Origin: a virus | Direction: 5' to 3' (one strand) | Virus record (IMG/VR): IMGVR_UViG_3300021957_000261 | Location: 1 to 25,929 of that record | DNA: 25,929 nt | Shown here: positions 1,230 through 17,284 of the stretch, piece by piece | How the letters are laid out: every line of letters begins with the position of its first letter | Numbering within the stretch: the stretch's first letter is position 1 | Made by a program: the position numbers and the translations under genes | Notes under the pieces: generated by a model | Told to the model about the DNA's origin: nothing | The model's database searches: none | Seen by the model: the letters and a program-made list of their open reading frames with translations, nothing else

Positions 1230-1247
1230 TTGTATAGTTTAGTTATA

Positions 1248-1577
1248 TTATTTATCTAATTCTTCTAGTCTCATTTGTAATGCAAAGATCTCATGATATA
1301 CCTTTCTAGTTTGTTTCTTTACCTTATTACACCATTCATATTCCTCATAGCCTTCTAAACCCTCTAATAGAGTATCAGCATAGTGTGTTAGTGCATATCT
1401 AATCTGTTCTAATTCTGTAAGTTTGTCTACAACTCCTGTAATAGCCTCTTTGATAGTCATACCATAGCTATAGTAAAACCAATCTTTAGCGTCTCTATGA
1501 TGACAGAATATTTCTGCTTCTAAGATTAGATCTTTGTAAGGATCAAAAAAATCTGCTATGCGTTTCTTCTTTTTCAT
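1248..1577 (-). CDS. hypothetical helical protein, 109 aa
   Basis: An intact frame whose ATG overlaps the TGA stop of the upstream gene as ATGA, a classic coupled start. The sequence begins MKKKKRIADFFDPYKDLILE and is predicted to be almost entirely helical, with Leu/Glu-rich segments at the C-terminus (YHEIFALQMRLEELDK) that could form a short coiled coil. No catalytic motif is visible and the family is not recognised. Tight coupling to both neighbours supports it as a real operon member. Confidence 0.75.
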   Translation of the reverse strand: MKKKKRIADFFDPYKDLILEAEIFCHHRDAKDWFYYSYGMTIKEAITGVVDKLTELEQIRYALTHYADTLLEGLEGYEEYEWCNKVKKQTRKVYHEIFALQMRLEELDK

Positions 1578-1801
1578 TCGTGTATCTGAGTTATGATTGG
1601 AGTTAGTATACGTTTAACAGTACCGCCTCTCTTTATATATTCGATTTTAATTAACCTATCTCTAGCCATATCTCTGAGTAGTCTTTTAACTTGTATGTCC
1701 TGTGAAGTCCACTCTCGAATATGTCTGTCATTAGGATCTGAATCCAGTTGAATCTGGTCTAATACTCTCTGTTTGTAGTGTGTTAGTGTCATTGTTGCCA
1801 T
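1574..1801 (-). CDS. small winged-helix-like protein, 75 aa
   Basis: The first gene downstream (on the minus strand) of the 127-bp palindrome copy A; its ATG at 1801 is only about 8 nt from the palindrome edge. The second half, residues 30-70, has a helix (QVKRLLRDMARDRLIKIEYI) followed by a basic turn, RGGTVKR, and a strand, a pattern like the recognition helix and wing of a small winged-helix DNA-binding domain. The fold assignment is tentative because the protein is short and has no diagnostic motif. Its location suggests that it, or the operon it leads, could be controlled by or act on the adjacent palindrome. The stop overlaps the next start (ATGA). Confidence 0.65.
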   Translation of the reverse strand: MATMTLTHYKQRVLDQIQLDSDPNDRHIREWTSQDIQVKRLLRDMARDRLIKIEYIKRGGTVKRILTPIITQIHE

Positions 1802-1808
1802 TTTTAAA

Positions 1809-1935
1809 AAAGTATAAAAAGTAATAAAATTGTCTCGTTTTAAAAACCCCTAAAATCCTTACGACTGCTTCCCAAATAGAGGTTTAAATATTGGGGGTTT
1901 CTAAAACATATATATTTTATTACTTTCTATACTTT
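1809..1935. repeat. 127-bp imperfect palindrome, copy A
   Basis: Outer arms at 1809-1830 and 1914-1935 (22 nt each) are complementary with one mismatch, and contain AAAGTAATAAAAT versus its complement. Six-nt spacers follow symmetrically (1831-1836 and 1908-1913). Inner arms GTTTTAAAAACCCC (from 1837) and GGGGGTTTCTAAAAC (to 1907) then pair with one or two mismatches. The central ~35 nt could form a further weak stem. No gene overlaps it. The stretch lies between the primase-helicase stop (1987) and the start at 1801. A second copy sits at 15069-15195 in the same orientation. On the minus strand the hairpin is followed by a T-rich run, so it could also slow or end transcription out of the helicase gene. 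A regulator site or replication origin are the main alternatives. Confidence 0.85.
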
Positions 1936-1986
1936 TTTTTACTATTTCAGTAACTTAGTAATCTTTTTTTAATAAAACTGTCTAAC

Positions 1987-4248
1987 TTAACTGTCTAAAT
2001 TTGGCATTGCCATATCAAACATAGCATCTCCGATAACTTGTTGACGAGTTAGACAAAACCAATGAGATCTCTTTTTAGTACCAAAACAACTACGATCTTC
2101 CATCCATCTCACGTGATCAGGACGGTCTAATGCATTAGTTAATTCTTGACCTAATTCCTGTTTCATTACTAATTTTATTTGCTTATTATTAGGGTCGTTT
2201 TTATACTTCCAATTACAGGCTCTTTTAATAGACTTACAATCAAACCAGTATTCATCCTCTTCTGGAAAGGCTTCAAAGAAATCTCCTGCTGCATCCATAA
2301 TAGCCTCATAGGTACTTGATTTATTTAGAGACTTTACAAATTGTTTAAGGTCAGTTTCATACTCGGATGGATTAAAGTAAAGACGGTGTGTTGTGTCTAA
2401 TTGCACTTGGCCTCTCTCATTCAGTTTAGTCTTTAGAGTAGGTACGATGTTTTTAATTAAGTAGTCTACAAAATGTCCCATTTCCTTCTGTATTTGTCCA
2501 TAATAATTTGCCACTTTATTCTTAGGCTCTTGATTTACTTCGACAAACCAAATACGTGAAGCTGATCCACTTACAGGTGCACTATCCCAATCATTTGATG
2601 TAAACATAAACTTACAGTGAATTGGAGACTCATACTTTTTCCCATACTTAGGATTAACCCATTGTGTATCAAATTCAGTAGTCCAATCCTTTAAGTTTGA
2701 CATTACTTCTTTTGGTTGCTTCCAGTTACCTGCCTCTTCAACTACTACTAATTGACTAGCTCCTAAGAAATCAGTAAAGTCAGATTCTAGAGCTTTACAT
2801 GAAACCTTTCTAGTTGCTTGAAGACCAACTAAGTATTTAAAGATAGCGACTACCGCAGACTTACCTTTATCTTCTGGTCCAATAAACCATAAGTTAGGTA
2901 GTTTAGCTTCAGGGTATGCAATTAAGATAGCACAGTACTGAAGTATTAGAGCATATTGATTACCGAAGCCATGACGTAGACCACCCTCGATCGTATCCCA
3001 TTCACCTGGTTGAGCTTTCCATGTGGGACGTGTAAATATATTACGTGTCTTACCATCTATGCCCAGATCGCGTGGAAACTCGTTAGAACAATAATCAGGC
3101 TTATAGCCAAACTTATCATATGATCTTGATGGTATAGCACGCGAACCATAGAATTTCTCAAAGATAGCTTTAGTCCATGGTATTAGATTATCAGTAACTG
3201 AATCCACTTTAAAATATTCAGTACCTACTATTTCATAACGACTAACATCTTCTGGACGCGCTTCAATTTTTTCTACATCAATACCTTCACGTTTATATGA
3301 TTGACGACGTATGTGGAGAGTTTCATCCTCATCTTGTTGTCTGTAGAATTCTCTACGCTCTTCCATAGTAGGTACATATATATGCTCGCCCTGTTTAACA
3401 GTTTGCTCAGCACCCTTTATTGGCCCATTCTCATGTATATGTCGCATCTCTGACTGAAAGTACTCACGTATCTCATCCGCTTGCATACCGCATCGAAGTA
3501 ATTGACATGCCATTGCAAATTGATAGTTATAGTTACCTTCATCATATGCAGGTTGCTTTGACATATAATACTTAAGCACCCAATCTATTTTAAGTCGATT
3601 ATCAGCGGTAGAATAAGTACCAACATAATCAGTTCTTGTAGTTGGTGTTTCTACATATTCCATAACATCTATCTCATGTTTTGCTAACCACTCATCTATT
3701 AGTTTAACAGAGACTCTACCTTTTACTTGAGCTACTTTCTGTACACGATCATGTACATTTGGCTTCTTCTTTACTAATTCATCTTTAGTGTTTACACCCC
3801 ATGGTCCACGAGTAAATCGACCAGGATCTTTACAAGCCACATCGATGTCAGCACCATACTTTAAGAGTCCATCACGTATAGCTTTAAAGTATGCAGTATA
3901 CAGAGAACGCTCTCCGAGATCCTCCTCTAACGCTATAATAAAATGTAATGATTTACTCGCTGAATTAATAACTGCGGAATAAGGTATCTTACTGCGCTTA
4001 ATTAGATCAGCTTGTTCTCTTTGACTATGTGTGTCCATTTCAAATAAGAAGTTACTAAATCTAATAACGTTAATACCTTTACGAGTAGTTCCTTTCTTCA
4101 TAGGATTAATCGACACATACTCTTGTGATTCTGCAATTTTACTTACAGGAAATGTTTTGTTCTCATATCGACTACCCATACAGGTATACTCGCCTGAGTT
4201 GAATAGACAATCTATCCATTCTTTTGTTAATTTAGTTTCTTTATTCAT
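1987..4248 (-). CDS. AEP primase - SF3 helicase fusion (replicative primase-helicase)
   Basis: A 753-aa two-part replication protein. The N-terminal third matches the archaeo-eukaryotic primase (PrimPol) pattern: an acidic E-x-D in FLFEMDTHS (about E70, D72), an S-x-H in SKSLHF (about 100-102), and ADID followed by DPGRFTR (about 133-147, with two Arg for nucleotide binding). The C-terminal half is a superfamily 3 / D5-like helicase: Walker A GPEDKGKS near 457-464, Walker B LVVVEEAG near 500, motif C FMFTSND near 546, and a likely arginine finger in SASRIWF near 563. It should make primers and unwind DNA at the phage origin. Its start overlaps the upstream gene by 8 nt, so the two are coupled. 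In motif I the first acid is Glu rather than Asp. No DNA polymerase is seen nearby, so the phage may use another locus or the host enzyme. Confidence 0.9.
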   Translation of the reverse strand: MNKETKLTKEWIDCLFNSGEYTCMGSRYENKTFPVSKIAESQEYVSINPMKKGTTRKGINVIRFSNFLFEMDTHSQREQADLIKRSKIPYSAVINSASKSLHFIIALEEDLGERSLYTAYFKAIRDGLLKYGADIDVACKDPGRFTRGPWGVNTKDELVKKKPNVHDRVQKVAQVKGRVSVKLIDEWLAKHEIDVMEYVETPTTRTDYVGTYSTADNRLKIDWVLKYYMSKQPAYDEGNYNYQFAMACQLLRCGMQADEIREYFQSEMRHIHENGPIKGAEQTVKQGEHIYVPTMEERREFYRQQDEDETLHIRRQSYKREGIDVEKIEARPEDVSRYEIVGTEYFKVDSVTDNLIPWTKAIFEKFYGSRAIPSRSYDKFGYKPDYCSNEFPRDLGIDGKTRNIFTRPTWKAQPGEWDTIEGGLRHGFGNQYALILQYCAILIAYPEAKLPNLWFIGPEDKGKSAVVAIFKYLVGLQATRKVSCKALESDFTDFLGASQLVVVEEAGNWKQPKEVMSNLKDWTTEFDTQWVNPKYGKKYESPIHCKFMFTSNDWDSAPVSGSASRIWFVEVNQEPKNKVANYYGQIQKEMGHFVDYLIKNIVPTLKTKLNERGQVQLDTTHRLYFNPSEYETDLKQFVKSLNKSSTYEAIMDAAGDFFEAFPEEDEYWFDCKSIKRACNWKYKNDPNNKQIKLVMKQELGQELTNALDRPDHVRWMEDRSCFGTKKRSHWFCLTRQQVIGDAMFDMAMPNLDS

Positions 4249-4573
4249 TTGTGATCATTTGTTTATATGTTGCAACTACTAACTCTATCTCTTCAAATTT
4301 TGTTTTAATGTATTTTGCAAGAGATGAATCATAATCAGTGGTTAGAAGGTCACCTACTAAACTATGTAAATCAGTCATCATTCTTTTTACTGAATCTTTT
4401 TTAATTCCTAAAATATAATCGTCATGTATATCTGGTCGTTTTTCTATAAAATGTAAATTCTCAACTATTTTATCTTCAAAGCTTTGCATATAGAATTTCC
4501 AATACTTTTGGTCTTTTGGACTATAGAGTGCATTGATAACCTCGTTGTCGAAATGTAATGATTTATACTGCAT
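4241..4573 (-). CDS. hypothetical protein, 110 aa
   Basis: An intact frame between the winged-helix gene (2-nt gap) and the primase-helicase (8-nt overlap), all on the minus strand. The protein is mostly helical and charged, with an aromatic N-terminal part (KYWKFYMQSFEDKIVENLHF) and no metal or nucleotide motif. It is not recognised. Its coupling to the primase suggests an accessory replication role such as a loader or modulator, but nothing in the sequence shows this directly. Confidence 0.75.
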   Translation of the reverse strand: MQYKSLHFDNEVINALYSPKDQKYWKFYMQSFEDKIVENLHFIEKRPDIHDDYILGIKKDSVKRMMTDLHSLVGDLLTTDYDSSLAKYIKTKFEEIELVVATYKQMITNE

Positions 4574-4575
4574 GA

Positions 4576-4977
4576 TTATTGGTTTTTAAATTTAGTTAGT
4601 AAATATCCTGGTTCAAACGGTGCTCTCATAATTGCACCAGACTCCATGCCTTTAGAGATAACTCTCTTAACACTCGATGTACTAATACTACATGCTTCTG
4701 CAATTGCATTAACAGATTGTGGCCATGTAGATCTGTGATGCATAAAAAGCAAGACTGCTTTCTCATACTGATTTAGATCTGACTCATAAATGAAGTCTTG
4801 TTCTTCTGAGATTGAATCACCTCGTTTAGGATCAAACTCTTTGACTTCTTTTAGTTTAGGTTCCATCATAGGCTGCATAGCTCTATGTAATTCTGATCTA
4901 AGTCCTTCGATAGAAGCAATAAGATCTTGTTTTGTGGTTACTCCATCTAAGAAGTAATTGATTTCTTGTTCGTTCAT
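4576..4977 (-). CDS. winged-helix DNA-binding protein, first gene of replication operon
   Basis: A 133-aa protein. The C-terminal half (about residues 70-128) reads as a winged helix: NQYEKAVLLFMHHRSTWPQS, then NAIAEACSISTSSVKRVISK as helix-turn-helix, then a wing region GAIMRAPFEPGYLL. This resembles the helix-turn-helix domain used by phage replication initiators and replisome organisers. The N-terminal half is charged and probably a flexible or oligomerisation segment. It is the first gene after a promoter-like site (5018-5049) and directly precedes the primase-helicase unit, consistent with a role in origin binding or operon control. A transcription regulator is the main alternative. Confidence 0.75.
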   Translation of the reverse strand: MNEQEINYFLDGVTTKQDLIASIEGLRSELHRAMQPMMEPKLKEVKEFDPKRGDSISEEQDFIYESDLNQYEKAVLLFMHHRSTWPQSVNAIAEACSISTSSVKRVISKGMESGAIMRAPFEPGYLLTKFKNQ

Positions 4978-4999
4978 AATTTAAAATTGTTTTTATTTT

Positions 5000-5015
5000 G
5001 TAACTTCGTTGTTAC
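5000..5015 (-). other. small stem-loop in leader of the replication operon
   Basis: GTAAC and GTTAC pair as a 5-bp stem around a 6-nt loop in the predicted 5' leader, about 23 nt before the 4977 start codon. It may protect the mRNA end or affect translation. It is short and could be chance. Confidence 0.3.
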
Positions 5016-5017
5016 AT

Positions 5018-5049
5018 CTGTTATACTTTATATATTGACATAGTTTCAA
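5018..5049 (-). promoter_or_regulatory. predicted promoter of the replication operon
   Basis: On the minus strand a T-run leads into TTGAAAC (TTG at 5049-5047), then 21 nt, then TATAACAG (5025-5018). The spacing fits the Bacteroidota TTG...TAnnTTTG layout, though the -7 box is imperfect. The same TTTTTTTGAAAC start and 21-nt spacing recur at the minus-strand small-RNA promoter near 5245. A TGTCAAT motif within the spacer is also found in the plus-island promoters. Confidence 0.5.
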
Positions 5050-5117
5050 AAAAAAGACAGATTTCTAAAAAAAGATTACTTTATGTACTTTTTGTTCTAA
5101 TTATGGTCCTTAGAGTA

Positions 5118-5209
5118 CAAAAAAAGGGGCTGGAAACATGAAATCCAACCCCTTCTAAAATCAATAAAAAATTATATTATGACTACAGTAAGTCCTCACA
5201 AAACCGTAA
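5118..5209 (-). ncRNA. candidate minus-strand small RNA (~90 nt)
   Basis: There is no gene-sized frame between the promoter-like site at 5245-5213 (TTG, 21 nt, TATAATAAG) and the strong minus-strand terminator at 5154-5119. Transcription between them would give an RNA of about 90 nt containing a small GACT/AGTC hairpin and the terminator hairpin. The terminator cannot easily belong to the fibre gene upstream, because that gene has its own terminator at 5391-5360. Function unknown; a short peptide leader cannot be excluded. Confidence 0.45.
5119..5154 (-). terminator. Rho-independent terminator, minus strand
   Basis: On the minus strand AAGGGGTTGG and CCAGCCCCTT form a 10-bp stem (one U-G pair) with an 11-nt loop, followed by seven T. 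On the plus strand the same position is a C-A mismatch, so the hairpin is built for the minus strand. Confidence 0.8.
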
Positions 5210-5212
5210 TCA

Positions 5213-5266
5213 CTTATTATATATCACACTCTTAATTTGTTTCAAAAAAATGTAGATACATATTAG
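5213..5266. promoter_or_regulatory. overlapping divergent promoters sharing TTGTTTCAA
   Basis: The nine bases TTGTTTCAA at 5237-5245 carry a TTG for the plus strand (5237-5239) and, as CAA, a TTG for the minus strand (5245-5243). Rightward, 19 nt later is CATATTAG (5259-5266), like the TATATTAG of the plus-island promoters. Leftward, 21 nt later is TATAATAAG (5221-5213). Each points at a predicted small RNA ending in a terminator. Confidence 0.45.
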
Positions 5267-5355
5267 GTAGTGGCGTTATTATTATGTTTCTATTTTTATT
5301 TTCTTTTAGCCACTACTAAGCCCCTAGTTATTGCCATTTCTAGGGGCTTTCTTTT
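5267..5355 (+). ncRNA. candidate plus-strand structured small RNA (~85 nt)
   Basis: A hairpin with arms GTAGTGGC (5267-5274) and GCCACTAC (5309-5316) closes a T-rich loop, and is followed by a one-nt gap and a perfect terminator hairpin (5318-5349) with a T-run. A promoter-like CATATTAG ends just before the first arm. Two hairpins packed end to end, the second a terminator, is the layout of a free-standing bacterial small RNA. The loop contains an 11-codon frame (MFLFLFSFSHY) without a clear ribosome-binding context, so a leader peptide is possible but less likely. Confidence 0.5.
5318..5355 (+). terminator. Rho-independent terminator, plus strand
   Basis: AAGCCCCTAG and CTAGGGGCTT form a perfect 10-bp stem with a 12-nt loop, followed by TCTTTT on the plus strand. 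No plus-strand protein gene lies upstream, which is the main argument for a plus-strand small RNA here. Confidence 0.85.
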
Positions 5356-5359
5356 GCAT

Positions 5360-5391
5360 AAAAAAGAGGGCCCCCATTTCTGAGAGCCCTC
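5360..5391 (-). terminator. Rho-independent terminator after the fibre genes
   Basis: On the minus strand GAGGGCTCTC and GGGGGCCCTC pair over 10 bp (with U-G pairs) around the loop AGAAAT, followed by six T. It sits about 45 nt past the stop of the 541-aa fibre gene and should end the structural operon. Confidence 0.8.
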
Positions 5392-5436
5392 GGCCTAAAT
5401 AAACTTAATAACAGCGCAGCTATTAGTTTACATCCA

Positions 5437-7062
5437 TTAGTTTATTTTTCTTAAAATAGTTCCATAATTAGTTACTGAACCTGTTGTTGAATCATTGTAA
5501 GCTTGGAAGTAAAAGTATTGTGTTACTGACCAATCAATTGTTTGTACTTCTACAGGATCTCCTGATCTTACTGTTTCATTTCCTGTTTCATTTGGTGTAC
5601 CATATGTATAAACCGCAGTACCTGCAGCAGTGATAAATAGTGTTTTTTGATAGTATGTTACTCCATTACTACTAGACTGTAATCCTGCTTGTTGTTTAGC
5701 AGAAGCATCTCCTACTACTGCTTGACCTACGGTCTGTGATTGTTCACTAAACCAATAAGATTCATAACATGTATTATTAAGAGTATCTCTATTCTCAAAA
5801 GATCTAAATTCTAAGATATCACCATTACCAAATGTATTAGCTGGTATAGTAACTACTGCGTAACAATTATCAGCCTGAGCCGTGTTAGGTACAGTAAATT
5901 GAGGTAGCTCAAAACTAACTATTCCACCACCACCTCCACCGATTGGTGTACCGTTGATGGCTAATTCAGAATTATTAGTTACTGTTACTTCTGATGAAGT
6001 TCCATCAGGTGATAACATTGTAATACCATTACCTCCTAATGCTGCTCCATCTGGTGCAACAATTTTAAGTGCTCTTACGTGTGTTGTATCTGCGGTATCA
6101 GCGGTTACTTGTCTTCCCATTGCAACTGCACCTGCTTGAGCAGCCGATGTTTGTTGTCCGAAAGCTACAGCTCCATCTCCTGATGCTGCTGAAGTTCTAC
6201 CGAATGCTATTGCGTATGTGCTAGTTGCTTCTGCGTATTGTCCAAATGCTGCAGCGGAAGTTTGAGTAGCTTGAGCATCATCTCCATATGCCATTGATTC
6301 TCCACCAGATGCTAAAGCATTTTTACCTATAGCAATAGAGTTAAGTCCACTTGCAGTGGAGTCTTGACCTACAGCTACGGCTCCTTGTGCGCTAGCTTCT
6401 GCTTGATATCCTACCGCAGTACTTAATGATGCAGTTGCATCAGTGTTATTACCTAAGGCTACAGATTGTTCACCTGCAGAATTAGCACTATGTCCTAAGG
6501 CTACACTAGATGTTCCGCCAGCATCGGCAGCACGTCCAACTGCGGTTGATGATAGTGCATTAGATAAAGAATCACGTCCTATAGCTAAAGTACCTGCATT
6601 ACCAGCAGCGGTTGCATTTAATCCAATTGCCATTTCTTCTCCAGATGCTGAACATGTAGCACCGTTACCGATAGCAAGACCTTGAGCTCCTGGTGCTGCA
6701 GCGTCTTTACCTATGGCAATACTTTCTGAATTACTTGCAATTGCATTATCACCTAATGCGATAGAGTTATTTCCTGATGCATTTGCAGCGGTAGTTGTTA
6801 AACTGGCAGCCGATTGCATTGAGTCAGTACCTGTACCACTTTCTAAACCTGCCGAAGCAGATGGTAAACCATTTACTGTTGCTCCTGTAAAATCTACAGT
6901 ACCACTAGAAAACTTAGTTTCTGTGTTACTCATTTCCATATTAGTAGCATTACCAGCACCGTCAGTTATTGCTTTTGCCGTTGCGGTAATGTTACCATTG
7001 TCGTCTGTTTTTAATAGCGCACCGAACGACTGATCTATTTGTGCATTTTGTAATGTTGCCAT
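5437..7062 (-). CDS. YadA-like tail fibre / receptor-binding protein
   Basis: A 541-aa fibre-type protein and the last gene of the structural cluster before a strong terminator. Residues 1-70 form an N-terminal domain (starts MATLQNAQIDQSFGALLKTD) shared in style with the next fibre, likely for attachment to the tail. From the hinge SGTGTDSMQSA (about 74-84) to about residue 320 there are many ~14-residue repeats of the type S-I-A-I/L-G-x-x-A-x-A, the left-handed beta-roll repeat of YadA/Hep_Hag heads, which trimerise. After NGTPIGGGGGG a separate globular C-terminal domain of about 165 residues follows (Cys, Tyr and Trp rich), the best candidate for the receptor-binding tip. No signal peptide or membrane anchor is present, so it is a phage fibre and not a cell-surface autotransporter. 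Confidence 0.8.
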   Translation of the reverse strand: MATLQNAQIDQSFGALLKTDDNGNITATAKAITDGAGNATNMEMSNTETKFSSGTVDFTGATVNGLPSASAGLESGTGTDSMQSAASLTTTAANASGNNSIALGDNAIASNSESIAIGKDAAAPGAQGLAIGNGATCSASGEEMAIGLNATAAGNAGTLAIGRDSLSNALSSTAVGRAADAGGTSSVALGHSANSAGEQSVALGNNTDATASLSTAVGYQAEASAQGAVAVGQDSTASGLNSIAIGKNALASGGESMAYGDDAQATQTSAAAFGQYAEATSTYAIAFGRTSAASGDGAVAFGQQTSAAQAGAVAMGRQVTADTADTTHVRALKIVAPDGAALGGNGITMLSPDGTSSEVTVTNNSELAINGTPIGGGGGGIVSFELPQFTVPNTAQADNCYAVVTIPANTFGNGDILEFRSFENRDTLNNTCYESYWFSEQSQTVGQAVVGDASAKQQAGLQSSSNGVTYYQKTLFITAAGTAVYTYGTPNETGNETVRSGDPVEVQTIDWSVTQYFYFQAYNDSTTGSVTNYGTILRKIN

Positions 7063-7086
7063 ATTGTTATATATTTAATTTTTTTA

Positions 7087-8634
7087 TTATACTATTCTAA
7101 TCTTTAAATCACCTGCATTATGATATACACCACCTAAAGGTATTCCACCCGCAGCCGCTGCAGTATCATCTGCATAATTTATATTTGCATAATCTAAGAT
7201 TTGTAATTTATCCATTGTTACAGTATCCGCAGTAACTGCATTGATACCTGAACCAATTGCTACTGCTCCATCAGCGGTTGCTTGTGCAAGTTTTCCTATT
7301 GCGATAGCTCCAATTGCTGTAGCGTCAGCTTCTTTACCAACTGCTATGGCATCTACCGCCGTTGCAGAAGAACCATATCCACCTACTACTGTAGCACCTT
7401 CAGCGGTTGCTTCACTAAATGCTCCGAATACACATGAGCTAAATGCTGATGCTGTTGAACTAGCGCCAACTACTACTGATCTACTACCTGATGCATTAGC
7501 ACTATCACCAATGGCAACTGTACGAGATCCAGTTGCTTGTGCTTCATTACCTACAGCTACATCTTTTTCATTTGTAGCATCAGTATTAAAACCAATTGCA
7601 ATGTTACTTCTAGCAAAAGCATTATCTCCACCTGCATTGGCTGTATTACCTATTGCGATATTATTAGCACTTGATGCAATTGAACCATCACCTAAAGCAA
7701 TAGTATCTGCTTCAGATGCATTTGCAGCCACAGTAGTTAAAGTAGAAGCTGATTGCATTGAATCAGTTCCTGAACCACTAATTAAACCAGCAGCAAGTCC
7801 ACCTCCACCGATTGGAGTTGAGTCAATTTGTAAGGTACCAGAAGCATCGATGTTTATTCTTCTATCTGTTCCACCTGCATCTGACATAATAATACCACCA
7901 GCAGTTGGTGTTGAATCTGTTTGTGTTTCTAGTGCTTTTACTGAAACTGTATCTATAGTTGAGGCAGTTACATCGTAACCTAATGCAACAGCTCCAGTTG
8001 CATTAGCAATAGTTCTATTTCCTACTGCGGTAGATTGAGTTGCTGAAGCATCAGCGCCATCACCTAATGCGGTACTATTTGAACCAGTAGCATTAGACTG
8101 ACCACCAAGTGCAACACTTTCATTTCCAGTACCTTGTGCAGAAATACCTACAGCTAAACTTCTACCTGAACCACCATCAGTGTCAGGTCCTATTGCCATC
8201 CCGTTACCTGCATTAGCATTATTCCCAATAGCCAATTTACCTGCGCCAGCAGCAATAGTATTAGCGCCTATTGCAATAGCACCTACTGATTGATTAGCTA
8301 CAGCATTTTTACCAATAGCAATTTGGTCTGTGTTAGCAGTTGAAGCACCATCGCCTAGAGCAATTGATTGAGCACCCGCTGCACTTGCAGCATTAGTAGT
8401 TAATGTATCCGCAGATTTTATTGAGTCTGTGCCAGCACCTGCAACCATACCACCTGGATTGATACCAGTTACTGTACCTGTAAAGTTAACAGTTGAAGAA
8501 CTAATTTGAATTGGTAGTACGCCACCGTTACCATCTTCTAGATTTTTAAGTGTACCATCAATTGGTTGTTCGTCTGAGGTTTTAATTAAACCTTCGTACG
8601 TGTCTTTAATTTTTTGATTTACTAAACTTGACAT
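7087..8634 (-). CDS. YadA-like tail fibre with internally duplicated module
   Basis: A 515-aa paralogue of the neighbouring fibre, 24 nt upstream of it. Residues 1-60 (MSSLVNQKIKDTYEGLIKTS) are an N-terminal domain. Two YadA-type beta-roll blocks follow, each opened by the same hinge: GAGTDSIKSADTLTT at about 66 and GSGTDSMQSASTLTT at about 277. The first block ends DSTPIGGGG, matching the end of the single block in the downstream gene. The C-terminus YHNAGDLKIRIV resembles short fibre ends common in marine phages. It lacks the large globular tip of the 541-aa protein, so it may form a shaft or a second fibre type. Expected to be a trimer on the virion. Confidence 0.8.
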   Translation of the reverse strand: MSSLVNQKIKDTYEGLIKTSDEQPIDGTLKNLEDGNGGVLPIQISSSTVNFTGTVTGINPGGMVAGAGTDSIKSADTLTTNAASAAGAQSIALGDGASTANTDQIAIGKNAVANQSVGAIAIGANTIAAGAGKLAIGNNANAGNGMAIGPDTDGGSGRSLAVGISAQGTGNESVALGGQSNATGSNSTALGDGADASATQSTAVGNRTIANATGAVALGYDVTASTIDTVSVKALETQTDSTPTAGGIIMSDAGGTDRRINIDASGTLQIDSTPIGGGGLAAGLISGSGTDSMQSASTLTTVAANASEADTIALGDGSIASSANNIAIGNTANAGGDNAFARSNIAIGFNTDATNEKDVAVGNEAQATGSRTVAIGDSANASGSRSVVVGASSTASAFSSCVFGAFSEATAEGATVVGGYGSSATAVDAIAVGKEADATAIGAIAIGKLAQATADGAVAIGSGINAVTADTVTMDKLQILDYANINYADDTAAAAGGIPLGGVYHNAGDLKIRIV

Positions 8635-8666
8635 ATGTTATTGTGTTTGTTTTATTTATTCGTTTT

Positions 8667-9869
8667 TTATGTTGTAAATGTGTATTGTACATTTCCTGGT
8701 ACCCAACCTCCTGTGTTTTGGTATGTCGTAAGCAAGACACCATTATCATCATATAGTGCCCATATTCTTTCACCAGCATATGAACCTGGGTTTGATCCCG
8801 CTACTATTCTATATGATTGGCCAGGTTCAACATCGATATATCTGTTAACTATACCTTTATAGTCTCTAGAACCAGTACTTGGGAAGTTAGGATCTCCGTT
8901 ATCAAATCTTTCAAATCTAATTCCAGCAGGGCCACTCAATTGACCTGCAACTGGATCTGTGGCATAATACAGTCTATTAATATCTGCCAACATATCGGAT
9001 GAGTTAGCAAATGAATAAGGCGTACCATTAAAGTTTACATCTGTAAACACCCCAGGACTAGTCTCTTTTTGTAGTATACACCAACCGGTATTCCAACCAT
9101 CTCCATACGTATCTTGTAATTTAAAATTATATACTAATACAGTACTGAGTGAAGTAATAGTGGCTGTAGTTGCCGCTGAAGTATTACCTGCGTTATCTGT
9201 TGCCGTACAACTACCTAAGTAATCTGTACCTGGTGATGCGCTACCTACAAGATCATTTGTAATTTGTATTTGCCAATCACCAAGACTATTTGTTGTTGTA
9301 GTGTAAGTTTGAGCATCTATTACAAATTCAATTGTACTAAAAGCTTCCGCCGTACCATTAACTAGAGGTGTAGCATCATTTGTTGTTGTAAACGAAGACC
9401 ATACTGGAGGTGCTGGAGGATTAAGGTCTATTGCCCATTCTTCATCTTCTAAGTTCCAGTCAGTATCTGTAGTATTCCATATTAGTTCTACAATTGGTAT
9501 TACCGCACAAGGTGCTGTACTACCAAATGTTCTGGTTTCAATGCCAAATTGATTAACATTAACACCCCAGATACAAGGTACTTGAGGTGCACCACCGTTA
9601 CAAACAGTATCGGCTATTGCGAACCACCATGTGCCGTTTTCAGGCTGTGAAATACCATAATGATCTGCAAGTGCTATTACCCATGAACCATATAAGGGTT
9701 GTGAAATGCCTAATTGTGCACATAGTGCTTGGATCCAACTACCATTAACAGGTCCAGTTGCTCCTAAATATAGAGCTGCCGCTGAAACCCATGTTCCACC
9801 AGTTGGTTCTGTAATAGTATTGTTACTAAGACAGAGTGCGTAGTCTCTTGTTGCTAATTGTATATCCAT
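8667..9869 (-). CDS. adhesin-like fibre with 18-residue repeats, Ig-like and DTYGDGWN domains
   Basis: A 400-aa protein with a mosaic layout. Residues about 20-92 hold four repeats with an exact 18-residue period, each with G-T/S-W (at about 24, 42, 60 and 78), e.g. PVNGSWIQALCAQLGISQ. Residues about 152-240 look like a bacterial Ig-like domain (PLVNGTAEAFSTIEFVIDAQ, ending in TATDNAGNTSAATTATITS). The rest begins LQDTYGDGWNTGWCIL, a motif found in secreted and surface proteins of Bacteroidota and some eukaryotes, followed by an all-beta region. It most likely decorates the tail or head and binds host surface polymers. It lies in the fibre cluster. Its leader and start share 22 identical nt with those of the tape-measure gene. 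Confidence 0.65.
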   Translation of the reverse strand: MDIQLATRDYALCLSNNTITEPTGGTWVSAAALYLGATGPVNGSWIQALCAQLGISQPLYGSWVIALADHYGISQPENGTWWFAIADTVCNGGAPQVPCIWGVNVNQFGIETRTFGSTAPCAVIPIVELIWNTTDTDWNLEDEEWAIDLNPPAPPVWSSFTTTNDATPLVNGTAEAFSTIEFVIDAQTYTTTTNSLGDWQIQITNDLVGSASPGTDYLGSCTATDNAGNTSAATTATITSLSTVLVYNFKLQDTYGDGWNTGWCILQKETSPGVFTDVNFNGTPYSFANSSDMLADINRLYYATDPVAGQLSGPAGIRFERFDNGDPNFPSTGSRDYKGIVNRYIDVEPGQSYRIVAGSNPGSYAGERIWALYDDNGVLLTTYQNTGGWVPGNVQYTFTT

Positions 9870-9888
9870 CTATATAGAAATATAATTT
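9867..9888 (-). repeat. 22-nt start leader shared with the tape-measure gene
   Basis: The 19 nt before the start codon, plus the ATG itself, are identical to 21310-21331. On the minus strand it contains TATATTTCTATATAG. It may be a translation-start leader or contain a TAnnTTTG-like promoter box (TATATTTC), although that would leave a very short 5' leader. Confidence 0.6.
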
Positions 9889-9893
9889 GTTAG

Positions 9894-10076
9894 TTAGTTG
9901 TTTCGTTTTAATCTCTCTACTGCATCGATAGCTCCTTGCGTACCAATGTAAGTAGTTGCAATAATCACCCAATCTGATGAAGTTAGATCGCCAAAGAGTG
10001 CAAGAGCTGTAGCTATAACGAAAACAAACAGTTTTTTACTTAACCAACTATTTAGTATTTTGTCCACTTTTCCCAT
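9894..10076 (-). CDS. small membrane protein, holin candidate (60 aa)
   Basis: The protein has a basic N-terminus (MGKVDKILNSWLSKK), a hydrophobic segment LFVFVIATALALFG (about 16-29), a second weaker one around WVIIATTYIGTQGAIDA, and a charged C-terminus ERLKRNN. Size and layout fit a small phage holin or related membrane protein placed between connector and fibre genes. No endolysin is adjacent, so the lysis role is inferred. A second small membrane gene at 17807-17968 competes for the same role. Confidence 0.6.
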   Translation of the reverse strand: MGKVDKILNSWLSKKLFVFVIATALALFGDLTSSDWVIIATTYIGTQGAIDAVERLKRNN

Positions 10077-10123
10077 TCTTACTTAAAAATATTTTTAGTT
10101 TTGTGATGTTCGTGTTCGTCGGC

Positions 10124-10717
10124 TTAGTTGCACGAGGAACAATCGGGGTCACAGTCTGTTCCGCAGTCCGCATATATCCAAAGGTTGTTTTGATTTCTTA
10201 ATAGTGGTACATTAGTTTGTAGTCCACTAAAATATTGATCTGTTTTATCTGGCATCATACCATCTGTTCCAGGATTTGTATACTCTGGGAACATACCAGG
10301 ATTATCTCTAAAGAACTCTACTAAACGAGTAGCATAAAACTCTGCTGTGTCTAATACAGTTCCTCTAAGGTATCTCAGTTCTTCTAAGGTGGTAGGTGCA
10401 GTCTCTTCTGACGTACCATTAACAATACCTTGATTAACTACTTTATATTTAATACTAGGCAAGATCATGTATAAAGCGTATTGCATTAGTGTTTTACCAA
10501 CATAATCATTTAGTAATAACTCTTCATCCGCATTTAAATCATTAGCTATTATACCAGCTTGTAATCTTGCATATAATTTAGATCCAACCAAATTTTGAAT
10601 GTAGATATCACTCGCTTGTAATATATGTGGTGTAATCTCATTTAGTCTAACATTGTCATCTAACTGAGTCCATTGTTTTAGTCTTTGTTCTGAGACTAGA
10701 AGTACTTGCTTCGCCAT
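10124..10717 (-). CDS. head-tail connector / adaptor protein
   Basis: A 197-aa, largely helical protein, directly downstream of the portal gene (1-nt gap). The N-terminal section LLVSEQRLKQWTQLDDNVRL and ASDIYIQNLVGSKLYARLQA is typical of head-tail connector proteins in Bacteroidota phages (DUF6712-like). These bind beneath the portal and pass the signal to the tail. An unusual feature is a Cys-rich end, DCGTDCDPDCSSCN, with four Cys in the last 13 residues, which could bind a metal or cross-link. The family is assigned from sequence style and position, not from a search. Confidence 0.65.
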   Translation of the reverse strand: MAKQVLLVSEQRLKQWTQLDDNVRLNEITPHILQASDIYIQNLVGSKLYARLQAGIIANDLNADEELLLNDYVGKTLMQYALYMILPSIKYKVVNQGIVNGTSEETAPTTLEELRYLRGTVLDTAEFYATRLVEFFRDNPGMFPEYTNPGTDGMMPDKTDQYFSGLQTNVPLLRNQNNLWIYADCGTDCDPDCSSCN

Positions 10718-10718
10718 A

Positions 10719-11867
10719 TTAATCGTTTGCTATATTTGTTATGTCTTCTTCAACAGCAATATCATCTGCATCAGTACCAATAATCATAGGCACTGGTTCC
10801 ACAGCTAATGTTACATTTAAGCCATATAAGTTTAATAAGTAACCAAAAGTATCGATTACTTTAGTTTGTTTTGGTCTTACAACTGAATTCATAAAGTGTG
10901 AATAAGCTGTAATAATCTCATCAGCATTACTAGAGAAACCAGATGCATCTACAACTCCCAACAATTTTGGAGAAGTCACCCTATGTGCGGTGAGTATACG
11001 TGATACAGTTCTAGCATCAACCAGTAAATAATAGTCATCATTTGCTGATTCTATTGGTGTTACTTCCATTTCTTCACCAGGTCTAGAGAAACCTAAGAAG
11101 AATCTACCAGCATTCTCTTCGCCAGTAAATGTGTTCTCTATTTCTCTATAGATATCTGCTCTTTCCTCAGGATTAGGAATACCATTTCTGAATTGAATAA
11201 ACATAGATGGAGATAAACCGTTAGAGATGTTCGCGTTGTGGAATCTAGCGATACGCGCATCAAGTTGGATATCGTTCATAGCCGATACATACGGTGGCAG
11301 TGGATAGACATCTTGACCTGGCTGATATGATTTACAGTAGTATATTTGTGATGCGTCATCACCTTTAGTGTTAGTTACACTAAATGCAGTGTATTCTACT
11401 GGTTTGTATTTTCTAATAGCAGTCCAATCAGATGAATAGTAATAACTTGTAATCTTATCTTCATCATTTGGAATAGCAGCTCTTACATTAGCAAAAGGTA
11501 AATGATACATTTCCGCTATGCGATTACCTTCTTTGTTCCAGATCACATTCATAGCATACCCACCGAATAGTGTGTAGTCTAATGCAATCTTACTAAAGAC
11601 TTCGTTAATAGTCTCACCATCAGAGTTTATATACTCTGTACCGTAGTCTATAATACCTTCACCAACAATACCATCTCTAATTGCATTAATACATGTAGCG
11701 TTAATTGCTGATGTATCATATAATCCTATAATAGTTTGTGGAAATAAGTTATCGCCACCAAATCTCATATAGTCTTTACCTCTTACTTCAGAGATAACTG
11801 GTAATTCTAGCGCTGTAAAGGCTTGTCCTTTAATAGAGTATAAACTCTCGGGATTTCTTGTGCTCAT
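10719..11867 (-). CDS. portal protein
   Basis: A 382-aa protein of the size of compact phage portals. It starts with a short N-terminal arm, then VISEVRGKDYMRFGGDNLFP, a region conserved in portals of Bacteroidota phages. CINAIRDGIVGEG and a mixed core follow, then a helical stem/clip area (RTVSRILTAHRVTSPKLLGV) and a C-terminal helix region. Portals form the dodecameric ring at one capsid vertex through which DNA is packaged and ejected. The gene lies between a small 138-aa structural gene (8-nt gap) and the connector. Its place downstream of capsid and tail-tube genes is unusual, since portals are normally upstream of the capsid gene beside the terminase. Confidence 0.8.
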   Translation of the reverse strand: MSTRNPESLYSIKGQAFTALELPVISEVRGKDYMRFGGDNLFPQTIIGLYDTSAINATCINAIRDGIVGEGIIDYGTEYINSDGETINEVFSKIALDYTLFGGYAMNVIWNKEGNRIAEMYHLPFANVRAAIPNDEDKITSYYYSSDWTAIRKYKPVEYTAFSVTNTKGDDASQIYYCKSYQPGQDVYPLPPYVSAMNDIQLDARIARFHNANISNGLSPSMFIQFRNGIPNPEERADIYREIENTFTGEENAGRFFLGFSRPGEEMEVTPIESANDDYYLLVDARTVSRILTAHRVTSPKLLGVVDASGFSSNADEIITAYSHFMNSVVRPKQTKVIDTFGYLLNLYGLNVTLAVEPVPMIIGTDADDIAVEEDITNIAND

Positions 11868-11875
11868 ATTTTATA

Positions 11876-12292
11876 TTATGTATAATTAGGTCTAAAGTAT
11901 GTATCTGACTCTCTTTGCTCATTATTAGAGATATAAGGCTTAGTGTCTATTTCACCACCTGGACTAAATATTAATCTAACCATACCTAAATTTATAGGAC
12001 CAAATGTTGGTTTATCAGTAGGTCCAAATGGTGGTGTTGTAACCACTTGATAAAAACCATCTCTGTGTTGCTTTGCAAAATCTGGAATTTGATCACATTG
12101 AACAAACCATCTAGAATACCTGTCATTAATTGTTAAAAATGCACTATCATTAAGTGGAAATGGTCCTAGCCACTCTTGTGTATTTAGAGATCTATACCAA
12201 GTCCAGAACTGGCCTTGATACGGTATACGTCCGTTCCAAAACATTTCTATATAAGAACCTGTTACTCCATTTTGTGTTACGATTGATGTCAT
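11876..12292 (-). CDS. hypothetical structural protein, 138 aa
   Basis: An intact frame just upstream of the portal gene. The protein is rich in aromatic residues, Pro and Gly and looks all-beta, with MFWNGRIPYQGQFWTWYRSL near the start. No signal peptide or catalytic motif is seen. The position between tail tube and portal suggests a head-tail joining or tail-completion protein. The family is not recognised and the assignment rests on context only. Confidence 0.7.
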   Translation of the reverse strand: MTSIVTQNGVTGSYIEMFWNGRIPYQGQFWTWYRSLNTQEWLGPFPLNDSAFLTINDRYSRWFVQCDQIPDFAKQHRDGFYQVVTTPPFGPTDKPTFGPINLGMVRLIFSPGGEIDTKPYISNNEQRESDTYFRPNYT

Positions 12293-12363
12293 ACTCTAGT
12301 TAGTTGTATTTGTATATTAAGAAATATAAAAACAGCGTGAGTTGTAATTAAGATAAATAAAAT

Positions 12364-12831
12364 ATGATAAAACACATCAAATACGGTGAATGGGAGTGTA
12401 TGAGTCTACCTCTTGCAGGTTTAGAGTCACCTATTGTTAAAGAATTACTAGATAGAATCAAAGAATTAGACTGGACTGACTACGAGCTGTGGACACATGG
12501 GAGCATTCTAGGAGACACTACTGCCAATGATATAGATTTAACTATTATAGGACCACATGATGTCCAGCGAGTCTCTAAGTTGTTAGAGGACTGCGTGAGG
12601 TTAGGTTACCAGCGTAATATACAAACTGATGTTAAATATCTAGTAGAAGGTCATTTATATGATGCTGTCGAAGGCCATCCACAATGTAATATAGAAGCAC
12701 ACTATCAACCAGAAATCTGGATTAATGGTACTACATATAAATATGGTGTGTTAGTTGATGGCTTATGGTGTACTGAAAGACATTGGCCTATGGTTAAATC
12801 AGCACCGTATTCTCCAAAACAATTAATATAA
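12364..12831 (+). CDS. nucleotidyltransferase-fold protein (MNT/pol-beta type)
   Basis: A 155-aa protein on the opposite strand to its structural neighbours. It contains the nucleotidyltransferase signature: THGSILGDTTANDIDLTIIG gives G-S (about 46-47) followed by D-x-D (D56, D58), and TDVKYLV supplies the likely third Asp (D89). These residues normally bind two metal ions and transfer a nucleotide from NTP to a target. The substrate (RNA 3' end, tRNA, protein or small molecule) cannot be read from the sequence. No HEPN partner gene is next to it, which argues against a simple HEPN/MNT toxin-antitoxin pair. It is a single-gene unit with its own leader and terminator, like a phage moron gene. 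Confidence 0.75.
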   Translation: MIKHIKYGEWECMSLPLAGLESPIVKELLDRIKELDWTDYELWTHGSILGDTTANDIDLTIIGPHDVQRVSKLLEDCVRLGYQRNIQTDVKYLVEGHLYDAVEGHPQCNIEAHYQPEIWINGTTYKYGVLVDGLWCTERHWPMVKSAPYSPKQLI

Positions 12832-12862
12832 AAAAAGGGCTACTAATTAAAGTAACCCTTTT
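12831..12862. terminator. bidirectional terminator between convergent genes
   Basis: AAAGGG-C-TACT and AGTA-A-CCCTTT pair around a 6-nt AATTAA loop. The C-A mismatch on the plus strand becomes a U-G pair on the minus strand, where seven T follow; the plus strand has four T. It serves the nucleotidyltransferase gene and the facing tail-tube gene. Confidence 0.75.
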
Positions 12863-12889
12863 CTGTTGATATTTAAGCTAGTTAAAGTT

Positions 12890-13405
12890 TTATGCTTCGA
12901 CTATACTTCCTGTAACTTCGAATGATGGTTGTTCTTCCATTCCGCTGAAAGTTAATTCACTCCCCGATCTATCTCCATACGCCACACCAGATACATTTGT
13001 ACCTGCAGTCATATATGCATTTCTAGCAATTCCTACTGACCAATATTTACCGTTATTGTCTTTAAAGACAACAACCATTTCATTGTTCTGAGATAGTAAT
13101 AAGATTTGATCTCTTATTGCTGCATCTCTTTTATTTAGGATCATTGTTAATGCCTGATCGTAGAATAATGTACCGTTTTCTTGTGATACATTGATAGTTT
13201 CTGTGAATGAACTAGTTTGTCTTGGAACCTCAAACTCAAAGAAGTCACTAGGTGTAAGTGCTGAACCACCTACTGTAATCGCTGTAATAGTTCCAGCCGA
13301 CTCAGTAAAAGATTCTGTGGGTCCGTTAGCAATAAAGATCTTCTCAATACCACCATTTTGGTCCACGCAATCGAGGGTTACCCCTTGGGTTATGTTACAT
13401 GCCAT
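12890..13405 (-). CDS. major tail (tube) protein
   Basis: A 171-aa protein beginning MACNITQGVTLDCVDQNGGI. This Cys-containing opening, the middle QENGTLFYDQALTMILNKRD, and the end (GVAYGDRSGSELTFSGMEEQ) match the style of small tail-tube-like proteins common in Bacteroidota phages and prophages. These form the hexameric rings of the tail tube. The length fits, and it lies right after the major capsid gene. Separate terminators follow both it and the capsid gene, suggesting levels are set by termination. A head decoration protein is the alternative. Confidence 0.65.
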   Translation of the reverse strand: MACNITQGVTLDCVDQNGGIEKIFIANGPTESFTESAGTITAITVGGSALTPSDFFEFEVPRQTSSFTETINVSQENGTLFYDQALTMILNKRDAAIRDQILLLSQNNEMVVVFKDNNGKYWSVGIARNAYMTAGTNVSGVAYGDRSGSELTFSGMEEQPSFEVTGSIVEA

Positions 13406-13430
13406 AGTTACTTATTGTTTTTTTTAGTTA

Positions 13431-13460
13431 ATAAAACCAGAGCCACCTGAGTAGCTCTGG
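13431..13460 (-). terminator. terminator after the major capsid gene
   Basis: On the minus strand CCAGAGCTAC and GTGGCTCTGG form a 10-bp stem (one U-G pair) with the tetraloop TCAG, followed by TTTTATT. It starts 10 nt past the capsid stop. The hairpin is strong but the T-run is interrupted, so partial read-through into the tail genes is plausible. Confidence 0.75.
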
Positions 13461-13469
13461 TAGTTTGAT

Positions 13470-14369
13470 TTACGCCATATCGTTAGTACCGAATAGGTTT
13501 ACTTCACCTACACCGACACCAAGTCTCCAAGCTGCTCTAAATTTCATTACATCAGAAGCTTCATCATAGAAGAATCTAAATGCATCTAACTCATCAGTTA
13601 AACCAGTTGCTGCTAAGATCATCTTACCAGGACCAGCAAATTTGTAATCAGATCCTACAAGACCTGAAGACTTAACCACAGTTACATTAGTTCCAGGTAA
13701 GATAATTACATCGTTACCAGATACTGAATCATAGTGGAATAAGTTAGAAGCTACTAAACCTCTTACTAAAGCTCTATAAGCATCAGGAGAAACAACCATA
13801 ATTAAGTCATCTCTATCTTTTACTGCTTCGTCGATTGCATCATATAAATCTAATGCTTGTTCTACTGCGTTAGCAGGAGTCCATGCTGCTGGTACACCAC
13901 CTTGTAGGTTAGCTCCGTTTGCAGATGTAATCTGTCCTTTAAGACCTGCTGTTGCACCAAATCCATTGATTAAGAAACCTTCGTTGTATTTTCTTAATTT
14001 GTCTGCGTAAGACTCAGAAATTACTTCTTCGAATGGTAACTCATTGTTTCCAGTACCTGCGCTCATAAATGCAGATTGGTATACTGATCTTAAGTCCTCG
14101 ATACACATTTCTGTTTTCGATTGTAAACTTTCGATTGTTACGTTTACTTGTGAGTAAGTTACTTCACCGTCTGAAGACCATCCACAAGATAGTGCTGATA
14201 CAGGTAATGCTGCATCAACTAAATTAATAGCGACTGTTCCACTAGTGAACCCGCTTCTTAGATCTACATAATCAAGTAGATCGGTTTTTAATACAGCCTT
14301 CGAGATAAGATCGATTGATAATTGATCTGTATACGCTGGAAGGGCTGAAATGTCAAATCCAAATGCCAT
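13470..14369 (-). CDS. major capsid protein
   Basis: A 299-aa protein directly after a scaffold-like gene (31-nt gap) and followed by its own terminator, the usual setting for a highly expressed capsid gene. It begins MAFGFDISALPAYTDQLSID. It contains ESLQSKTEMCIEDLRSVYQS and a KLRKYNEGFLINGF segment seen in major capsid proteins of Bacteroidota phages. A late beta-rich part (MILAATGLTDELDAFRFFYD) precedes the C-terminus. The length is normal for a compact HK97-fold capsid protein without an N-terminal delta domain; the scaffold is supplied by the separate upstream gene. The HK97 fold is inferred from context and overall pattern, not seen directly. Confidence 0.75.
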   Translation of the reverse strand: MAFGFDISALPAYTDQLSIDLISKAVLKTDLLDYVDLRSGFTSGTVAINLVDAALPVSALSCGWSSDGEVTYSQVNVTIESLQSKTEMCIEDLRSVYQSAFMSAGTGNNELPFEEVISESYADKLRKYNEGFLINGFGATAGLKGQITSANGANLQGGVPAAWTPANAVEQALDLYDAIDEAVKDRDDLIMVVSPDAYRALVRGLVASNLFHYDSVSGNDVIILPGTNVTVVKSSGLVGSDYKFAGPGKMILAATGLTDELDAFRFFYDEASDVMKFRAAWRLGVGVGEVNLFGTNDMA

Positions 14370-14400
14370 AATGTTAATTAGTTTTTTTTGTTAGTTTAAA

Positions 14401-14988
14401 TTATTTGTTGCGGATAGCTCTTAATGCATCCATTCTTGTAGCTAGAGTTGATTCAGCTTCTTGTTTTGCTTTGCTGAAGTTATTTCTAACTGGTTTTGTA
14501 GCAGGTTCATCAGCTACCACATTAAATCTTTCTTGTAAAAGAGATAATTCTTTTTTAAGTTCTTTGATTTCGTCAGTGTAAGGCTCTAACATAGTTGCAA
14601 TACCCTCAAGCATTCCTTCTACGTCGAATTCTTTCTTCTCTTCGATCTCGATTTCTTCTTCTTCCATTTTAACTTCTTCTTTATCTTCTTCAGAAGCTTC
14701 AACTTCAGCGCCCATATCTTCGATACTAGAGATTTCGCCGTTTTCACCAACAGTAATCAATTTACCATCAGTTGTTTCGTGTTTCCCTGCAGGTGCGAAT
14801 GGATCTTCTGATGCACCCTCTCCAGCTCTTACAAAAAGAATTGCTCCATCTTGTAATTCGCCTTCAGTATACACTTCAGTTCCATCTACTAGAGTTGCCT
14901 CTGCAAATGAATTTTCTACAACTGTTACGGTTTCTGTGTCTGCTCCGAGCATTACTCTAAGCTTTGAAATTGCGTTCTCGACTGTCAT
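14401..14988 (-). CDS. scaffold-like capsid assembly protein
   Basis: A 195-aa protein with two parts. Residues about 20-90 form a beta-rich domain (FAEATLVDGTEVYTEGELQD, then KHETTDGKLITVGENGEISS), a pattern often seen in the gene before the capsid gene in Bacteroidota phages. Residues about 93-125 are very acidic (runs of Glu), and 135-165 are a likely coiled coil, LKKELSLLQERFNVV, with a basic C-terminus (KAKQEAESTLATRMDALRAI). The coiled coil and basic tail fit a scaffold that binds the capsid protein and is removed by the prohead protease. It is the first gene of the minus-strand block after the regulatory region at 15.0-15.3 kb. Confidence 0.65.
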   Translation of the reverse strand: MTVENAISKLRVMLGADTETVTVVENSFAEATLVDGTEVYTEGELQDGAILFVRAGEGASEDPFAPAGKHETTDGKLITVGENGEISSIEDMGAEVEASEEDKEEVKMEEEEIEIEEKKEFDVEGMLEGIATMLEPYTDEIKELKKELSLLQERFNVVADEPATKPVRNNFSKAKQEAESTLATRMDALRAIRNK

Positions 14989-15040
14989 ACTGTAATAGTT
15001 TTTTTAGATTATTGTTGCCTGACTTAGTGCCAGGTATTAA

Positions 15041-15068
15041 GTAATATAGAAAAGCTCAATATTGACAA
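15041..15068 (-). promoter_or_regulatory. predicted promoter for scaffold-capsid block
   Basis: On the minus strand TTG (15068-15066), 17 nt, then TATATTAC (15048-15041), 53 nt before the scaffold start. TTGTCAAT at the -33 box shares TGTCAAT with the plus-island promoters. The -33 side abuts the palindrome copy B, so a protein bound there could block or aid polymerase. Confidence 0.45.
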
Positions 15069-15195
15069 AAAGTAATAAAAGTAATAAAATTGTTTACTTT
15101 TAAAAACCTCCAAATATCTCTCCACTCTTTCCCAGATAGAGGTTTAAATATTGGGGGTTTCTAAAACATATGTATTTTATTACTTTATATACTTT
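15069..15195. repeat. 127-bp imperfect palindrome, copy B
   Basis: The same length and orientation as copy A at 1809-1935, exactly 13,260 bp away. The right half (15131-15195) differs from copy A at 3 of 65 positions; the left half differs at about 15 of 62. Outer arms (15069-15090 and 15174-15195) still pair, and inner arms CTTTTAAAAACCTCC and GGGGGTTTCTAAAA remain largely complementary. It lies between divergent transcription units: the capsid block promoter to the left and the plus-island promoter P1 to the right. It is a candidate operator, replication origin or nucleoprotein site. Confidence 0.85.
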
Positions 15196-15209
15196 TTTAG
15201 TCTTTTTTT

Positions 15210-15266
15210 GAAAATAAATGCTCAAATATTTTTTTATGTCAATTATTTTTCGTATATTAGTAGTAT
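15210..15266 (+). promoter_or_regulatory. plus-island promoter repeat P1
   Basis: The first of three repeats with the shared core TTTTTTTATGTCAATT, then TTTTTCG and TATATTAGTAG (TATATTAG at 15253-15260). An upstream AAAATAAA block starts 43 nt before the TATATTAG box in all three copies. It drives the GNAT gene at 15304. Confidence 0.75.
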
Positions 15267-15273
15267 ACTAATG

Positions 15274-15287
15274 GAGGTTAATACCTC
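15274..15287 (+). other. leader stem-loop before the GNAT gene
   Basis: GAGGT-TAAT-ACCTC is a perfect 5-bp stem with a 4-nt loop, in the predicted 5' leader between P1 and the start at 15304. The ATG at 15271 would open an 8-codon upstream frame over the same bases. It may tune translation; it is short enough to be chance. Confidence 0.35.
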
Positions 15288-15885: not shown

Positions 15886-15894
15886 AAATAATTT

Positions 15895-15950
15895 GAAAAT
15901 AAACGCATAAATATTTTTTTATGTCAAATATATTTCGTATATTAGTAGAG
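15895..15950 (+). promoter_or_regulatory. plus-island promoter repeat P2
   Basis: The second copy of the P1 repeat in the same register (TATATTAG at 15938-15945, upstream AAAATAAA 43 nt before). It begins 10 nt after the GNAT stop and precedes the acidic-protein gene at 15974. Confidence 0.75.
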
Positions 15951-15973
15951 TAATAATTAAAACAAGTAAAACT

Positions 15974-16214: not shown

Positions 16215-16220
16215 AAAAAC

Positions 16221-16509: not shown

Positions 16510-16517
16510 TTAAAAAA

Positions 16518-17248: not shown

Positions 17249-17284
17249 TCAGTATAACTAGTATAAACAATAAAAACAAATATT

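Follow-up and report, generated by a model that had tools for sequence, protein, structure and literature searches.

A long palindrome present twice in a phage genome: a putative stem-loop origin of a primase-helicase module and its second copy

The locus described here raises the question of why a phage genome should carry the same long non-coding palindrome in two distant places. The window, meaning the whole stretch of DNA that was analysed, is one virus record of 25,929 bases. As seen in Table 1, the two copies, A and B, lie in direct orientation with an offset of exactly 13,260 bp. Alignment of copy A with copy B gave 86.4% identity over 132 bp (E about 1e-41), which confirms the duplicated palindrome described in the initial annotation. 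The drift reported there for the left half was also recovered, as 16 of 66 positions differ in the left half and 3 of 66 in the right half (Fisher p = 0.002). Both copies are imperfect palindromes. The arms of copy A (1806-1856 and 1888-1938) are 80% complementary and those of copy B (15067-15113 and 15151-15197) are 77% complementary. Folding of the minus strand as RNA yielded z = -7.8 for A and -7.1 for B, folding as DNA yielded z = -6.8 and -4.2, and none of the shuffled A and B sequences folded equally well. Four occurrences of the 24-nt arm AAAAAGTATAnAAAGTAATAAAAT were counted in the window, all of them within A or B, whereas 0 were expected. Copy B retains the inner stem and, on either side of it, the conserved arm (AAAGTAATAAAAT). 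No credible gene overlaps either copy, as had been stated before.

Table 1. Positions of the two palindromic copies, their arms and the neighbouring features in the window
Feature	Position	Strand	Description
Copy A	1806..1938	-	Stem-loop element, putative replication origin of primase-helicase module
Copy A, outer structure			Outer stem of about 25 bp; symmetric internal loop of 5-6 nt
Copy A, inner structure			Inner stem GTTTTAGAAACCCC/GGGGTTTTTAAAAC; TTTGGG in apical loop
Copy A, left arm	1807..1830	+	Iteron-like arm AAAAAGTATAAAAAGTAATAAAAT
Copy A, right arm	1914..1937	-	Iteron-like arm AAAAAGTATAGAAAGTAATAAAAT
Copy B	15067..15198	-	Second copy, between capsid operon and plus-strand added genes
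Copy B, left arm	15067..15090	+	Iteron-like arm AAAAAGTAATAAAAGTAATAAAAT
Copy B, right arm	15174..15197	-	Iteron-like arm AAAAAGTATATAAAGTAATAAAAT
Copy B, left flank	15062..15071	+	TTGACAAAAA, last bases common to element-free relatives
Small gene	1574..1801	-	75 aa, directly after copy A
Primase-helicase	1987..4248	-	753 aa, DUF5906/SF3 helicase; presumed initiator at A and B
HTH_36 protein	4576..4977	-	133 aa; weak match to a replication-initiation PHROG

Each copy had been placed just upstream of a minus-strand transcription unit. Both do precede minus-strand genes; however, copy A is situated between two co-directional genes, in the interval from the stop of the primase-helicase gene (1987) to the next ATG (1801), and it ends only 4 nt ahead of that ATG. 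The 753-aa protein matches DUF5906 (E 4.3e-12) and the C-terminal region of the NrS-1 polymerase, for which a structure has been solved (E 9.5e-22; PMC7102993). Its N-terminus gave weak Foldseek matches to RepB' and the S-2L PrimPol from a low-confidence model. The model of its C-terminus (pLDDT 71.5) has a helix and strand order plausible for a winged helix; the fold searches, run with this model and with a poor full-length primase model, returned no significant match. A Pfam search gave no Toprim match. The HTH_36 protein is the other candidate DNA-binding protein of the same module.

Comparison with related contigs indicates to which unit copy A belongs. L005, L125 and L128 each have a homologue of the small gene at the corresponding position. 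Contig L128 is 98.55% identical to window positions 1-1793, where its homology ends; beyond this border, a DnaB-type helicase gene overlapping with the small gene is present and the element is absent. As L128 runs 3.4 kb past the left edge of the window, the genome in the window is incomplete. Contig L125 is 87% identical over positions 1-1792; its primase-helicase beyond this point is only 27% identical, and it has its own intergenic repeats. For both contigs, nucleotide homology thus stops at the start of the small gene (1792-1793), and in G031, whose primase is of the same type as that of L125, it picks up again at window position 5119. These two breaks and the resumption place copy A inside the exchanged unit, at its very edge. 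No comparable element was found in the three DnaB-type modules (L128, G018 and G008). Judging from these borders, the replication module is swapped as one unit, copy A included.

Five SF3 modules, a small number, could be compared, representing the lineages of the window, L124, L005/G002, L125/G031 and G011. Each of the 4 other phages carrying an SF3-type module shows a long hairpin, inverted AAAAGT-type repeats, or both in the same interval, and the sequence of the hairpin or repeat is lineage-specific. In L124, AAAAGTCGTACC is present five times in both orientations, a count reached in 0 of 300 shuffles. In L005, AAAAGTCTTAC is present three times in a hairpin sized like copy A (3 of 300 shuffles), and the L125/G031 interval contains AAAAGTGGAAA repeats together with a hairpin (1 of 300 shuffles for L125). 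The interval of G011 holds a hairpin with z -4.9. As with copy A in the window, the hairpins of L005 and L125 are located immediately 3' of the SF3 gene. The interval motifs of L124, L125/G031 and L005/G002 are absent or nearly so from the rest of their contigs. The count of 9-mer repeats exceeded that of shuffles in L124, L125 and L005; the same test was non-significant for copy A alone, which has 2 copies, and for G011. In copy A and G011, the signal consists of palindrome and fold, not of repeat count. No comparable large palindrome was found in the more distant SF3 phages Agrobacterium Milano and 7-7-1.

A short motif is also shared. On the primase-sense strand, every one of the five SF3 intervals contains TTTGG, and no other 5-mer with two or more G/C is common to them (0.16 expected). 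The longer TTTGGG is present in 4 of the 5 (0.017 expected), and copy B has TCTGGG. The NrS-1 primase-polymerase initiates at 5'-TTTGGTTA-3' (PMC8718748). A role of the TTTGG-type motif as a priming site in these intervals is suggested by this similarity, which is not proof.

The element goes with the SF3 module and not with whichever gene lies downstream, and this linkage bears on its possible function as RNA. A structured RNA or transcript-level element, such as an attenuator, a stabiliser or a 5' UTR, copied twice, would be compatible with the very stable RNA fold, with the short distance from copy A to the ATG, and with several single-side changes that preserve G-U pairs on the minus-strand transcript. 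Given that linkage, the lack of any Rfam match up to E = 1 and the lack of a terminator-like site, such an element appears very improbable. The explanation we favour, and consider probable, is that the primase-helicase has its stem-loop origin in copy A and that copy B duplicates this origin or the initiator-binding site. The putative origin role of copy A is well supported by the comparison of modules. In the proposed mechanism, the inverted AAAAGT... arms would be the binding repeats of the initiator, and once the initiator is bound to them, the SF3 ring would melt the hairpin. The melted or extruded hairpin would expose the TTTGG-type priming site, and priming would start at the loop. Paired replication origins were among the initial suggestions, and the comparison favours this candidate, the activity of B being putative. 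GC skew, which had been recommended as a check, follows gene strand and marks no origin.

The history of copy B is different from that of copy A. Relatives were gathered with the 299-aa structural protein adjoining B, resulting in 80 related contigs. Two of them, L008 and L010, are about 93-95% identical to the window over the capsid block and colinear across the site without B; L011, L009 and L016 are likewise colinear without it. At the position that B occupies in the window, the element-free relatives carry the short sequence TTGACAAAAA-CTAAACTTTTTTGAAAATAA or one closely similar to it. A search of 82 relative loci, 57 of which cover the B site, yielded no palindrome of this kind. Conservation had been taken to imply selection; for copy B, drifted and absent from these 57 relatives, the argument fails. 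Nor do close relatives show two copies per genome at similar positions, as they lack B, and among the sequences retrieved there is no second genome with both copies. In G002, a complete relative of 30.6 kb, there is a single site, and its motif is absent elsewhere in that genome with zero mismatches allowed. A second site is thus not needed by the family, and B is at most accessory. In the more distant phage L133, whose contig starts within the element, the sequence ahead of the small gene has GGGGTTTnnAAAACGAGnnAATTT in common with copy A at the corresponding position (shuffle p 0.003-0.007); with copy B it is not shared. Within the comparable segment, L133 agrees with A at 4 of the 5 sites where A and B differ, as read from the alignment. 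A accordingly keeps the older state, and B is the drifted copy.

These distributions also bear on the proposal of a shared operator, by which a phage DNA-binding protein, either the HTH_36 protein or the initiator, would act on A and B to co-regulate the small-gene and capsid operons. In favour of this, A and B each stand ahead of minus-strand genes and point the same way, B is located between divergent units, and initiator-bound sites can double as operators. An operator is expected to stay with its target gene, whereas this element stays with the replication module. Relatives without B keep the capsid operon, and phages with a DnaB module keep the small-gene operon (98.5% identical) without A. 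Co-regulation also leaves unexplained why each of the compared SF3 modules has an equivalent element after its SF3 gene and why DnaB modules lack one. A conserved operator was set aside for these reasons, and an operator role in general is considered unlikely.

The clean empty site for B might instead point to a non-autonomous, MITE-like mobile element inserted twice, and the long arms resembling terminal inverted repeats, the AT-rich composition and the lack of coding capacity would fit such an element. However, target-site duplication is not visible at A or B, no copy was found with three patterns in 2.9 million viral contigs, and a 20-mer scan of bacterial genomes returned chance coding matches only. 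Moreover, the position of A holds analogous elements of other sequence in other SF3 modules. Two MITE-like insertions are thus also an unlikely explanation. A match of the element to a Lactococcus phage was rejected as short, AT-rich and situated in an unrelated repressor-gene intergenic region. Searches for relatives of the plus-strand neighbour gene at 15304, considered as a carrier of B, found none. The self-repeats seen in G022 and G016 are fibre-gene and promoter repeats.

Contig L007 matches the window at 99.8% identity and stops precisely at 15071, on the base immediately ahead of the element, at B's edge. Direct repeats and such an end could be produced by a site of excision or inversion, as initially proposed, or by an assembly artefact. 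With an identity of only 86%, A and B are not an assembly duplicate, and excision would take out capsid, portal and primase genes. Element-free relatives are colinear across the B site with no rearrangement, so excision or inversion finds no support; recombination and artefact together are regarded as the least probable of the explanations considered. As L007 ends in the way an assembler does at a branch, B may be polymorphic in that population.

The second copy as an origin or initiator-binding site thus remains the preferred interpretation of B. At copy B, the run of minus-strand structural genes is broken by a set of plus-strand genes (15.3-17.9 kb), and this plus-strand stretch is missing from several relatives. 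As B retains the conserved arm and the inner stem, the initiator of A would probably still bind it. Its place in the late-gene block, where transcription units diverge, would make it another initiator-bound site some 13 kb from A, to act either as a second origin or as a fork-stalling or accessory site like SPP1 oriR or P4 crr. A further step, held only tentatively, is that both hairpins are functional origins of one SF3 primase-helicase and that an origin was copied into a late-region site of gene acquisition, by which the SPP1 layout was reached independently; the source of the copied origin, in this equally tentative scenario, would be the phage's own or a related replication module. For an uncultured group of phages that is present in many metagenomes, these results point to a probable replication origin. 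They further show that this putative origin and the primase-helicase are exchanged together, with initiator-specific repeats changing in step, and the five pairs of initiator and hairpin can be used to test the proposal of a stem-loop origin drawn from pRN1 and BIP-1.

Compared to known systems, the stem-loop type of origin is already known and its duplication is new. In P4, crr is a second cis site, and it is essential. The window resembles P4 ori/crr in having two separate cis sites with repeats and a primase-helicase initiator; unlike in P4, whose alpha protein is of the Toprim type (discussed in PMC4234260), no Toprim was found here, and the second site is missing from relatives. In pRN1, a stem-loop of about 100 nt located 3' of the primase-SF3-winged-helix gene is required for replication; it works when relocated on the plasmid, and its structure is conserved although its sequence is variable (PMC4234260). 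The same arrangement was described as a putative origin in Bordetella phage BIP-1 (PMC4234260). Copy A matches these in position 3' of a primase-SF3 gene, in size and in structure. Unlike in pRN1, which has no iterons, the arms in the window carry repeats specific to the initiator module, and the element is present twice. The NrS-1 primase-polymerase has a related SF3-type C-terminal region, and TTTGG stands on the sense strand of the interval (PMC8718748, PMC7102993). The likeness lies in the C-terminal region, N-terminal primase/polymerase kinship being without sequence support, and most modules here have TTTGGG, and B has TCTGGG, in place of the TTTGGTTA start. The closest parallel in layout is SPP1, with two related origins about 13 kb apart, of which oriR lies in a moron-carrying late-gene segment (PMC6316719). 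There, the role proposed for oriR-bound gp38 is to stall forks and thereby bring about rolling-circle replication (PMC6316719). The oriR site has been linked to the switch from theta to sigma replication. SPP1 uses gp38 and a DnaB-family helicase, whereas the window has an SF3 module and the DnaB type belongs to the element-free L128, G018 and G008; the SPP1 origins are direct repeats with an AT-rich region, whereas the elements of the window are long hairpins. Like oriL and oriR, the two related sequences of the window are divided between the replication genes and the late block, and if B functions, they would represent an independent case of an SPP1-like two-origin arrangement.

The minus-strand structural genes are interrupted by a block of plus-strand genes at 15304-17829. 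In the related phage contigs L013, L014, L015, L017 and L018 this block is missing, and 15071 is joined directly to about 17813-17829. The plus-strand gene 12364-12831, a weak nucleotidyltransferase match, is also absent from the relative L011, whose alignment to the window skips from 12357 to 12830; it is another added gene.

The left junction of palindrome copy B creates a promoter-like match (TTGACA-17-TAAAAT, 11/12) at 15062-15090, directed into the element. Such matches showed no excess over shuffles in this region. A near-identical upstream region occurs three times (TTTTTTTATGTCAA...CGTATATTAGTAG). This repeat is also carried by relatives, and is probably a duplicated phage promoter.

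Copies of the 66-78-bp upstream repeat
Copy	Position	Location
1	15198-15275	before plus-strand gene
2	15883-15960	before plus-strand gene
3	16417-16494	before plus-strand gene

Two fibre-like proteins are encoded at 5437-8634, the first containing YadA-head repeats; both coding sequences contain diverged 42-nt repeats.

A second conserved noncoding region (4977-5434) lies upstream of the HTH_36 gene, with 84% identity to L005 (up to 5099) and 87% to G031 (5119-5434). One edge of the swapped replication module is located within it. The small-gene operon (window 1-1801; L128 1991-7212) is 98.5% identical between the window phage and L128, whereas their replication modules, SF3 and DnaB respectively, are unrelated. 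This marks a clean module-swap boundary.
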